NCBI RefSeq assembly: GCF_011250635.1
Contig: NZ_JAANNP010000005.1
Span: 229-43,572, forward strand
Source of the DNA: Motilibacter deserti
GTDB taxonomy: Bacteria; Actinomycetota; Actinomycetes; Motilibacterales; Motilibacteraceae
Reading direction: 5' to 3'
DNA: 43,344 bases
How positions within the stretch are numbered: position 1 is the first letter of the stretch; each line of letters begins with the position of its first letter. Below, in pieces: positions 11,432 to 15,962 of the stretch. The translations under genes and the position numbers were made by a program. Under the pieces are notes generated by a model. The model had not been told where the DNA came from and did no database searches. It saw nothing but the letters and a program-made list of their open reading frames with translations.

Positions 11432-12387
11432 TCGACTTCCGCTACCACCTGGTCTCGTTGATCGCGGTGTTCCTCGCCCTTGCCGTCGGAGTCGTGCTCG
11501 GCGCCGGCCCGCTCGACGACCCCATCGGGCAGACCGTCGAGAGCCGGGCCGACGCCCTGAGCCAGTCCAACAACGAGCTGCGCGACGACAAGGCCGAGCT
11601 GGCCGACCAGATCAGCGGCTACGAGGACTTCATCACCCGCACCACCCCCGCGCTCGTCGGCGGCCGGCTCGAGGGCACGACCGTGGCCCTCGTCGGGATG
11701 CCCGGCGTGACGGAGGGGCAGGCCGAGACCGCGCGCGCCGGCCTCGAGGCGGCGGGGGCGGCCGTCCCCGGCAGCGTCCTGCTGACCGATGACTGGACGG
11801 CCGAGGACCGCGCCACCGAGCTCGACGACGCGCTGACCCGGCTGATGCCGCCCGACGTGTCGTTCCCGGAGGACACCAGCAGCGCGGCCCGGGCCGCGCT
11901 GGTGCTGGCGCGCGGCATCGTGACCGCCGACCCGGCCGCCGCCGGCGCCGCCGACCCTGCGGCCAAGACCCTGCTCGAGGGGCTGCGCGAGGACGGGTTC
12001 CTGACCGCCGAGGACGAGCCGTGGAAGCGCGGGAGCCTGGTGGCGGTCCTCGCGCCGCTGCCGGAGGAGCCCAAGCCGGGCGAGGACACGACCCGGGAGC
12101 GCAGCGTGCTCCTGGCCGTGCCGCGGATGCTCGCGACCGCCGGCGCGGTCACGGTGGTCGCCGGGCCGACCGGCAGCGCCGAGTCCGGCGGGCTCGTGGC
12201 CGACGTCCGCTCGGACTCGGAGGTCGCCGCGACGGTCTCGACCGTCGACGACGTCGACACGCCGGCCGGGCGCGCGACGCTCGCGCTCGCGTTCGTCGCC
12301 GCGCGCGCCGACGACCCCGGCCACTACGGCGACGGCCCCGGCGCGGACGAGCCGCTGCCGGACATCGAGGGCGTCACCAACAAGTGA
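11428..12387 (+). CDS. steB: SteB/MctB-like membrane-anchored protein
   Basis: A 319-residue protein starting VIDFRYHLVSLIAVFLALAVGVVLGAGPL, the characteristic N-terminal signature of the 'copper transporter' family (Rv1698/MctB, corynebacterial SteB). GTG 11428 overlaps the steA stop. One N-terminal membrane helix (about 8-28) is followed by a coiled coil (SQSNNELRDDKAELADQISG) and a large extracytoplasmic domain. The M. tuberculosis homologue has been linked to copper homeostasis and channel formation, while the corynebacterial pair SteA-SteB is linked to division. Given steA next door the division role seems the more relevant. It overlaps the next gene by 4 nt. Confidence 0.85.
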   Translation: MIDFRYHLVSLIAVFLALAVGVVLGAGPLDDPIGQTVESRADALSQSNNELRDDKAELADQISGYEDFITRTTPALVGGRLEGTTVALVGMPGVTEGQAETARAGLEAAGAAVPGSVLLTDDWTAEDRATELDDALTRLMPPDVSFPEDTSSAARAALVLARGIVTADPAAAGAADPAAKTLLEGLREDGFLTAEDEPWKRGSLVAVLAPLPEEPKPGEDTTRERSVLLAVPRMLATAGAVTVVAGPTGSAESGGLVADVRSDSEVAATVSTVDDVDTPAGRATLALAFVAARADDPGHYGDGPGADEPLPDIEGVTNK

Positions 12388-13244
12388 GCGGGCGCGCCTC
12401 CGGCAACGCGCGGCCCGCCGGGCCTGCAGAGCGCGCCGCCGCCGTGGCCGCGGGGGCGGCGGCCGCGTACGCCGCGTTCAGCGGCCTTCTCGCCCGACCG
12501 CCGGGCGGGCACGAGGCCTGGGGCCGGCGCAACGCCCGCGACCTTCCCGTCACCCTGCTCGAGGGCCCGGCGTACGCCGCGGCTGCGGCGCTCGGCGTGG
12601 CGCTCGCCCCGGGGGTCGCCCCGCGGGCGCGGGCGGCCGGGCTGCTGGCCGTCGCCAGCGCCGGAGCGTTGGGGGCGTACGACGACCTGGCCGGCTCCGG
12701 CGACGACCGGGGGCTGCGCGGGCACCTCGCCGCGCTCCGCCGTGGGCGGGTGACGACCGGCGCCGCCAAGTTGGCCGGGCTCGGCGTGGCCGGCCTGGGC
12801 GCAGGCGCGCTGCTGCGCGCAGGGCGCGACGGCAGCGCCGTGGACGCCCTGCTCGCCGGTGGCGTGATCGCGGGGACCGCCAACCTGGCCAACCTGCTCG
12901 ACCTGCGCCCCGGCCGCGCGCTGAAGGCCGGGCTGATCGCGGGCGCACCGGCGCTCGTGCGCGGCGGCGCGCCCGGTGCCCTGGTGGCGGGGCCGCTCGG
13001 GGCCGCGCTCGCGATGCTCCCGGCGGACCTGGGAGAGCGCTCGATGCTCGGCGACGCCGGGGCCAACGCGTTGGGGGCCGCGCTCGGGCTGAGCGCGGCT
13101 GCGGGGGCGTCGCGGCGCAGCCTGGGCGTACGCCTCGCCGTCGTCGCGGGCCTGACGCTCGCCAGCGAGAGGGTGAGCTTCACCCGGGTCATCGCCGCGA
13201 CGCCGGGCCTGCGCGAGCTCGACGCGCTCGGTCGCCGGGCGTGA
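12384..13244 (+). CDS. MraY/WecA-like polyprenyl-phosphate sugar-1-phosphate transferase homologue
   Basis: A 286-residue polytopic membrane protein with GTG start at 12384 inside the steB stop. It shows diverged versions of the MraY/WecA landmarks: GAYDDLAG for the Asp-Asp Mg-binding motif, TTGAAKL for the following cytoplasmic loop, NLANLLDLRPGRALK where MraY has N-x-x-N-x-x-D-G-L-D-G, and MLGDAGANALGAALG for the G-D-x-G-x-x-x-x-G motif. It is shorter than MraY (about 360) and has LRPGRALK in place of GLDG, so it is not the peptidoglycan MraY itself. It heads a coupled cassette with a MurJ-like flippase and a GT4 enzyme. It likely transfers a sugar-phosphate to a polyprenyl carrier; substrate unknown. 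Confidence 0.75.
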   Translation: MSGRASGNARPAGPAERAAAVAAGAAAAYAAFSGLLARPPGGHEAWGRRNARDLPVTLLEGPAYAAAAALGVALAPGVAPRARAAGLLAVASAGALGAYDDLAGSGDDRGLRGHLAALRRGRVTTGAAKLAGLGVAGLGAGALLRAGRDGSAVDALLAGGVIAGTANLANLLDLRPGRALKAGLIAGAPALVRGGAPGALVAGPLGAALAMLPADLGERSMLGDAGANALGAALGLSAAAGASRRSLGVRLAVVAGLTLASERVSFTRVIAATPGLRELDALGRRA

Positions 13245-14860: not shown

Positions 14861-15962
14861 GCCGCTGGACGTCCGGCTCGTGCTGGCGACGAGCACCGGC
14901 GGGGTCGGCGCGCACGTGCGCGCGCTGGCCCGCGGGCTCGTCGAGCGCGGCGACACCGTGACCGTCCTCGGCCCCGCAAGCACCGAAGCGCAGTTCCGGT
15001 TCACCGAGACGGGCGCGGCCTTCCGCCCGGTCGAGGTGAGTGTCGTCCCGCGCCCGGCGTCCGACGTCCGGGCCGTCCTGCGGCTGCGCCGGGAGCTGCG
15101 CGGCGCGGACGTGGTGCACGCCCACGGGCTGCGGGCGGGCCTGGTCGCCGGCATGGCACTCCGAGCCGGCGTGCCCTACGTCGTCACCTGGCACAACGCG
15201 CTGCTCGCCACCGGGGCCAAGCGCGCCGTGCTCGAGCGGATGGAGCGCTACGACGCCCGGCGCGCTACCGTCACGCTCGGCGTCTCGCCCGACCTGGTCG
15301 AGCGCGCCCGCGCCATGGGCGCGCGCGACGCCCGGCTCGCCAACGTCGTCGCGCCCGCGCCACAGCCGTCCACGCGTGAAGGGGCGGACCGGCGGGCCGA
15401 GGTCCGCGCGGAGCTGGGGGTGGGGGCGAGCCCGCTCGTCGTCGCCGCCGGCCGGCTCGCGCCGCAGAAGGCCTATCCCGTCCTGCTGCAAGCCGCGCGC
15501 ACGTGGCGGGACCGACCGGACCGCCCGTTGACCGTGATCGCCGGCGAGGGGCCGCTGCGCGCGGAGCTGCAGCGCCGCATCGACGACGACGGGCTGGCCG
15601 TACGCCTGCTGGGCCACCGCGACGACGTCCCCGACCTGCTCGCCGCCGCGGACGTGGCCGTGCTCCCGTCGCGCTGGGAGGGCCGACCGCTCGTCGTCGA
15701 GGAGACGCTGCGCGCCGGTGCGCCGCTCGTCGCGACCGCGGTCGGGGGAGTGCCGGAGATGGTGGGCGACGCGGCGCTTCTCGTGCCGCCGGACGACCCT
15801 TCGGCGCTCGCCGCGGCCGTCGTGCAGCTGCTCGACGACCCGGCCGAGCGGGTCCGGCTCTCGGCCGCCGCGCGCGAGCGGGCGGCCGGCTTCCCGACCG
15901 AGGACGACACGGCCGCCGAGGCACGCCGCCTCTACGTCGAGCTGAGGAATTCGCTAGGCTAG
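14853..15962 (+). CDS. Family 4 glycosyltransferase
   Basis: A 369-residue GT-B glycosyltransferase. GTG 14853 overlaps the flippase stop by 8 nt. The N-terminal domain starts [28 protein letters not shown], with [17 protein letters not shown] and VVTWHNALL following. The C-terminal domain carries [19 protein letters not shown] (the GR-L-x-x-x-K donor-phosphate motif), [38 protein letters not shown] and the E-x7-E segment [12 protein letters not shown]. These are hallmarks of retaining GT4 enzymes that use nucleotide sugars on the cytosolic face. No signal or membrane helix. As the third gene of the transferase-flippase cassette it probably extends a polyprenyl-linked sugar. Confidence 0.9.

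Follow-up and report, generated by a model that had tools for sequence, protein, structure and literature searches.

The window analysed here, a stretch of 43,344 nucleotides from Motilibacter deserti, carries a five-gene operon in the order steA-steB-transferase-MurJ2-GT4, in which successive reading frames overlap by 4, 4, 4 and 8 nt (ORF coordinates), in agreement with the 4-8 nt given in a preliminary description of this DNA, and which is followed by pyrG after a gap of 55 nt. The features of the locus, with the basis of each assignment, are as follows.

8297..10060, + strand: recN, the upstream border of the conserved locus (translation, synteny)
10244..11431, + strand: steA, a cytokinetic-ring protein with a TPK-like nucleotide pocket (NF040608, PF12555)
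11428..12387, + strand: steB (MctB family), GTG start, 4-nt overlap with steA (PF11382, sequence)
12384..13244, + strand: divergent PNPT-superfamily transferase, 286 aa, GTG start, 4-nt overlap with steB (AlphaFold2 model, MraY fold match, MraY/WecA profile match, phylum-wide orthologues)
12681..12686, + strand: transferase DD motif D100-D101, the first two catalytic Asp, aligned to the MraY/WecA DD and present in 144/144 sequences
12882..12926, + strand: transferase loop C, N167-x2-N170-x2-D173-x2-P176-G-R178-x2-K181, with Pro for the uracil-reading Asp and new Arg/Lys
13044..13055, + strand: transferase M221-L-G-D224, with the Mg-binding Asp kept and Met for the uracil-stacking Phe (M221 and D224 in 144/144)
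13241..14860, + strand: MurJ2, a putative MurJ-like lipid flippase, 539 aa, GTG start, 4-nt overlap with the transferase gene (PF03023, own clade)
14853..15962, + strand: GT4 glycosyltransferase, 369 aa, GTG start, 8-nt overlap with MurJ2 (E276-x7-E284 retained; PF13692/PF00534/PF13439)
16018..17715, + strand: pyrG, TTG start, the downstream border of the conserved locus (translation, synteny)

SteA passes NF040608 with 520 bits (cut-off 150, E 2e-156) and SteB passes PF11382 with 272.6 bits (cut-off 25.6, E 7e-81), the true start of steB being the GTG at 11428. The earlier assignment of the last gene to the GT4 glycosyltransferases holds as well: both GT-B domains are present, the two glutamates of its E-x7-E motif are invariant in the alignment, and its best matches are scattered over BshA, MshA and PimA-like proteins. 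No polymerase or ligase that could use the product is found among the operon genes.

The window transferase alone yields zero Pfam or NCBIfam matches, and its identity comes from its fold and its orthologues. Its AlphaFold2 model (pLDDT 95.5) matches MraY (9zno) with Z 22.5 over 255 residues (VIA-align) and human DPAGT1 with Z 20.5, the next unrelated fold being at Z 5.2; by structure comparison it has the MraY/GPT fold along its whole length. Comparison by hhalign with MraY/WecA of the same clades (93%, E 3.5e-7) pairs D100-D101 with the DD motif, N167/N170/D173 with the N-x2-N-x2-D of loop C, and D224 with the Mg-binding Asp. By its fold and its catalytic Asp triad, the protein is a member of the PNPT superfamily. 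In MraY of A. aeolicus, the DDD motif (D117, D118, D265) is essential, D265 binds Mg, and the uracil pocket is formed by K70, G194, L195, D196 and F262 (PMC6606608). Eleven residues are identical in 144/144 transferase orthologues (D100, D101, H114, K129, N170, D173, P176, R178, K181, M221, D224), among which P176 stands at the position of MraY D196 and M221 at that of F262, while the invariant R178 and K181 adjoin the replaced pocket positions (PGRxxK); MraY/WecA of the same clades retain Asp and Phe at these two positions. The loop-E His motif (HHH or HxHH) is absent, with no His beyond residue 114 in the window protein, and the C-terminus instead reads SExxSFxxxI...LDxxGR. Judged by sequence, the transferase is placed outside the MraY or WecA family proper, since equivalents of D196 and F262 and the loop-E His are not kept.

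The altered motif LRPGRALK, to which the preliminary description had drawn attention, is indeed found at residues 174-181, where it replaces part of the uracil-reading pocket and leaves the catalytic DDD triad in place. Reading LRPGRALK as the loss of a catalytic Asp was rejected because the third catalytic Asp lies in MLGD and is present, the replaced Asp being the one that reads uracil. A loss of all residues for Mg and UDP-sugar, an outcome that had been named as speaking against a dedicated pathway, is thereby not what is seen. With the catalytic core retained and the base-reading part rebuilt, the protein probably works as a phosphoglycosyltransferase whose nucleotide pocket has been altered. 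A UDP-sugar donor is not to be assumed for it, and the donor may be another activated sugar.

For the MurJ-like protein, an earlier proposal of a second set distinct from the canonical MurJ is borne out by phylogeny. In a tree of 67 proteins, with reading frames chosen by HMM, MurJ2 of the class forms one clade (100/98) and canonical MurJ another (100/100), the two being ~30% identical; MurJ2 passes PF03023 (190.4 bits vs. gathering 27.4) and stays below the MurJ equivalog TIGR01695 (186.9 bits vs. cut-off 235.55). On the tree and these profile scores, MurJ2 is placed as an old paralogue distinct from canonical MurJ, and by analogy it is a putative flippase for a lipid-linked saccharide. Its lack of a pseudokinase, also pointed out earlier, is real and not distinctive: in the sister genome, the 554-aa canonical MurJ lacks one too. 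A long MurJ frame is expected where MurJ bears a pseudokinase; the two MurJ frames inspected in mycobacteria-like genomes have 1243 and 1360 residues. The PF03023 hits in the window genome are MurJ2 and a weak match to an unrelated flippase encoded in a polysaccharide locus; with the sister's canonical MurJ as query, no second murJ copy is recovered. The DNA match to the murJ region of the sister halts at the end of contig C177 (locus L078, 1668 bases; nothing beyond the match), and the copy appears single because the draft contig ends inside the canonical murJ region. The possibility that MurJ2 is the only murJ of the genome, a further outcome named as adverse, was thus rejected: the sister genome carries both proteins, and the canonical copy of the window genome falls at an assembly gap.

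The complete order recN-steA-steB-transferase-MurJ2-GT4-pyrG occurs in 20 relatives from ~15 families. Among 40 relatives, the transferase is present in 22, and a MurJ2-type second MurJ accompanies it in 22/22 of these vs. 0/18 of the others (Fisher 9e-12). The SteB and transferase frames overlap in 13/19 loci and those of the transferase and MurJ2 in 13/20. Across 118 near-complete genomes of the class, scored by a strong transferase match (n=48) and by SteA above the cut-off (n=67), 44 have both, 4 the transferase only, 23 SteA only and 47 neither (Fisher 8e-11); the transferase adjoins steAB in 43 of the 44 with both; in the exception (G052) the assembly breaks between steA and steB, and the transferase shares its contig with steB but not with steA. 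In a scan of all genomes, the best 80 loci listed are all actinobacterial (Streptosporangiales, Geodermatophilales, Micromonosporales, Kineosporiales, Micrococcales, Propionibacteriales and others); the five genes from steA to GT4 stand in order in 68 of these named loci, where overlaps recur too. The shared gene order, the recurring overlaps and the 11 invariant residues place the arrangement far beyond chance. In the rest of the phylum, approximately half of the sampled genomes have the transferase, and steA and/or steB are present in 47/51 fetched loci, so that the co-occurrence with steAB, suggested earlier as a check on the coupling, is strong both within the class and beyond it. In most actinobacteria steAB heads an operon that also carries an apparent, as yet unstudied machine for making and flipping a sugar-lipid.

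Outside the class, the interval between steB and the transferase is variable, usually holding a single GT2 gene, or MurJ2-GT4 plus a gene for a ~740-residue protein, or none. The persistence of the steAB-transferase link while the intervening genes are exchanged argues for selection on that association. The GT2 proteins have AglJ, GpgS and polyprenyl-phospho-GalNAc synthase as best NCBIfam matches and GpgS and DPM synthase as PDB matches; such a small AglJ/DPM/GpgS-like GT2 was observed in place of MurJ2-GT4 between steB and the transferase at L235:5359-6027 and L243:5452-6129, for example. A membrane protein family of ~740 residues was also seen to recur in the steAB operon of many actinobacteria (L240:3813-6047, L236:3764-5956, L126:2327-5923, L061:9706-12024). 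Within the class it lies between GT4 and pyrG in 22/106 loci, and the copy of the window genome is unlinked, on contig C216. Its model predicts an LtaS/YejM-like alkaline-phosphatase-fold domain followed by many helices; Pfam, NCBIfam and PDB searches gave no family match and no convincing sequence match, and the identification is by fold only.

A number of lineages carry parts of the operon. In the mycobacteria-like genomes (family f4; L205, L211) the cassette is absent and steB is directly followed by pyrG, exactly as stated in the preliminary description, and six further sampled families have steA without the transferase; mycobacteria and corynebacteria look like lineages that lost the cassette. 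Four Streptomyces-like genomes (7.8-9.7 Mb; L198-L201) have the transferase and GT4 between recN and pyrG with no steA, steB or MurJ2 at the locus, and their transferases have N167 changed to His and K181 to Ala or Gly, with the C-terminal LDxxGR lost. These steAB-less genomes, together with the 23/67 steA genomes without the transferase, indicate that neither half strictly needs the other; the absence of GT4 beside a retained transferase in Isoptericola and Oerskovia, and of MurJ2 in one MAG (L094), indicates that the complete trio is not obligatory. Two single loci may be added as observations. In L203, steAB and GT4 are kept, MurJ2 is missing, and a decayed transferase remnant (4812-5010, - strand), in which LRPGRA and MLGDTGAN are still readable, lies between steB and GT4. 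In Nostocoides jenkinsii (L108, 6863-10227), the transferase and an over-long MurJ2 frame are present with steAB and GT4 not within 7 kb; this record has 200 N, and the odd arrangement may be due to assembly.

The reading that we favour, to which we give roughly even chances, is that the window shows the five-gene form of an ancient, phylum-wide operon, in which steAB is joined to a dedicated lipid-linked-saccharide pathway that is matched to it in dose and sensed by SteA. As to substrate and product, dosage coupling, a septal role and sensing, we infer the following scheme. The transferase would move a phosphosugar from a nucleotide-activated sugar onto polyprenyl phosphate, GT4 would attach a second sugar, and MurJ2 would flip the finished lipid to the outer face; in many lineages the operon also includes the LtaS/YejM-like alkaline-phosphatase-fold protein, or has the AglJ/DPM-like GT2 in place of GT4 and MurJ2. 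The overlapping frames would match the dose of the cassette to that of SteAB, the activator of a wall hydrolase separating daughter cells, and the SteA pocket may read a nucleotide or nucleotide-sugar of the pathway, such that hydrolase activation waits for the envelope glycan. In published work, SteAB is described as placing and activating the hydrolase RipA. SteA of C. glutamicum gains stability from GDP or UDP and not from ADP or triphosphates, with the ligand given as unknown (PMC12977500), and a 2025 preprint finds that M. tuberculosis and M. smegmatis can separate without steB (PMC12338722). The stabilisation by GDP or UDP makes the cassette a candidate source of the ligand. Several observations weigh against this reading. 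The recN-pyrG neighbourhood is stable, so that linkage alone could be inherited. Mycobacteria and corynebacteria have a working SteAB and no cassette, and steB itself can be dispensed with in M. tuberculosis and M. smegmatis. The four Streptomyces-like genomes retain the transferase and GT4 in the absence of SteAB, the trio is incomplete in Isoptericola, Oerskovia and L094, and a ligase or polymerase for the product is missing from the operon.

Under the most probable of the alternatives, the cassette would supply an ordinary envelope glycolipid or wall polymer that is functionally unconnected with SteAB, its co-location stemming from the stability of the recN-pyrG region in actinobacteria. 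In its favour, nearly every locus is bordered by recN and pyrG, a third of the steA genomes (23/67) have SteAB and no cassette, and transferase and GT4 are kept without steAB in the four Streptomyces-like genomes. Mere inheritance of neighbourhood, however, does not easily accommodate a steAB-transferase link that persists across classes with a swapped interval (MurJ2-GT4 with the alkaline-phosphatase-fold protein, GT2, or none), the recurrence of 4-nt overlaps, or the loss of steAB being accompanied by loss of MurJ2 and drift of the transferase; we regard this alternative as possible and somewhat unlikely. In a decidedly less probable one, the transferase would have ceased to be an enzyme and would sense polyprenyl phosphate or lipid intermediates in the membrane, passing the signal on to SteA and SteB. 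Such a role would fit the missing uracil-reading Asp, Phe and loop-E His motif of MraY/WecA and the retention of the transferase without GT4 in Isoptericola and Oerskovia, but pseudoenzymes usually lose catalytic residues, whereas here the three catalytic Asp as well as N170 and D173 are kept in 144/144 sequences, and a glycosyltransferase nearly always accompanies the transferase. Finally, a division-specific peptidoglycan precursor route, with a variant lipid I/II made by the transferase and flipped by MurJ2 at the septum, appears very improbable: among solved structures the closest relatives are MraY and members of the MurJ family, and the targets of SteAB are peptidoglycan hydrolases, yet the features of the UDP-MurNAc-pentapeptide pocket (D196, F262, loop-E His) are not retained, the accompanying glycosyltransferase belongs to GT4 or GT2 and is not MurG-like, and no mur or penicillin-binding-protein gene was noticed among the operon genes.

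An extension of the favoured reading, the lipid-linked-saccharide pathway tied to SteAB, is speculative, and we hold it to be unlikely as a whole. It would have ancestral actinobacteria time their separation by sensing a dedicated lipid-linked glycan, made by the transferase of new specificity and flipped by MurJ2, with SteA reading a nucleotide or nucleotide-sugar of the pathway before SteB-dependent release of the hydrolase; mycobacteria and corynebacteria would have kept the sensor and lost the pathway. The ligand of SteA is an open question in the published work, and a pathway encoded in the same operon now provides a specific candidate in most of the phylum, one that the organisms used for SteAB studies lack. 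The analysis further delimits a phylum-wide, as yet uncharacterised subfamily of the PNPT proteins in which the catalytic residues are intact and the nucleotide pocket is altered. It also sets apart a second clade of MurJ proteins, presumably with a cargo of their own, and an LtaS/YejM-like membrane protein that is linked to the operon. No papers describing the cluster were found in the open literature searched (most subscription journals lie outside it), and the available text of the published SteAB papers does not mention the glycolipid cassette. The component families are known; what appears to be undescribed in that open literature is the operon taken as a system, along with the transferase subfamily and the MurJ2 clade.

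A side-by-side comparison with known systems brings out both shared and distinguishing features. With the PNPT superfamily (MraY, WecA/TagO, DPAGT1), the transferase shares the fold, the DD...D triad and the N-x2-N-x2-D loop C; it differs by an invariant Pro for the uracil-reading Asp/Asn, an invariant Met for the stacking Phe, the new invariant R178 and K181, the lack of an HHH/HxHH loop E and a length shorter by ~70-90 residues. MurJ2 has invariant residues in common with canonical actinobacterial MurJ (TIGR01695/PF03023), but forms a separate clade under the equivalog cut-off and always stands beside a canonical MurJ in the genomes of complete relatives. Lipid-linked oligosaccharide modules (wall teichoic acid, WecA/Wzx-type, protein glycosylation) likewise combine an initiating transferase, glycosyltransferase(s) and an MVF-family flippase, sometimes with an LtaS/YejM-like membrane enzyme; compared with them, the cassette is minimal, without polymerase or ligase, has an unusual transferase pocket and is tied to cell-separation regulators. 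Lastly, steA, steB and the order recN-steA-steB are common to this locus and to the SteAB systems of Corynebacterium and Mycobacterium, but there pyrG follows steB, whereas here and in most of the phylum steB is followed by the glycolipid cassette.
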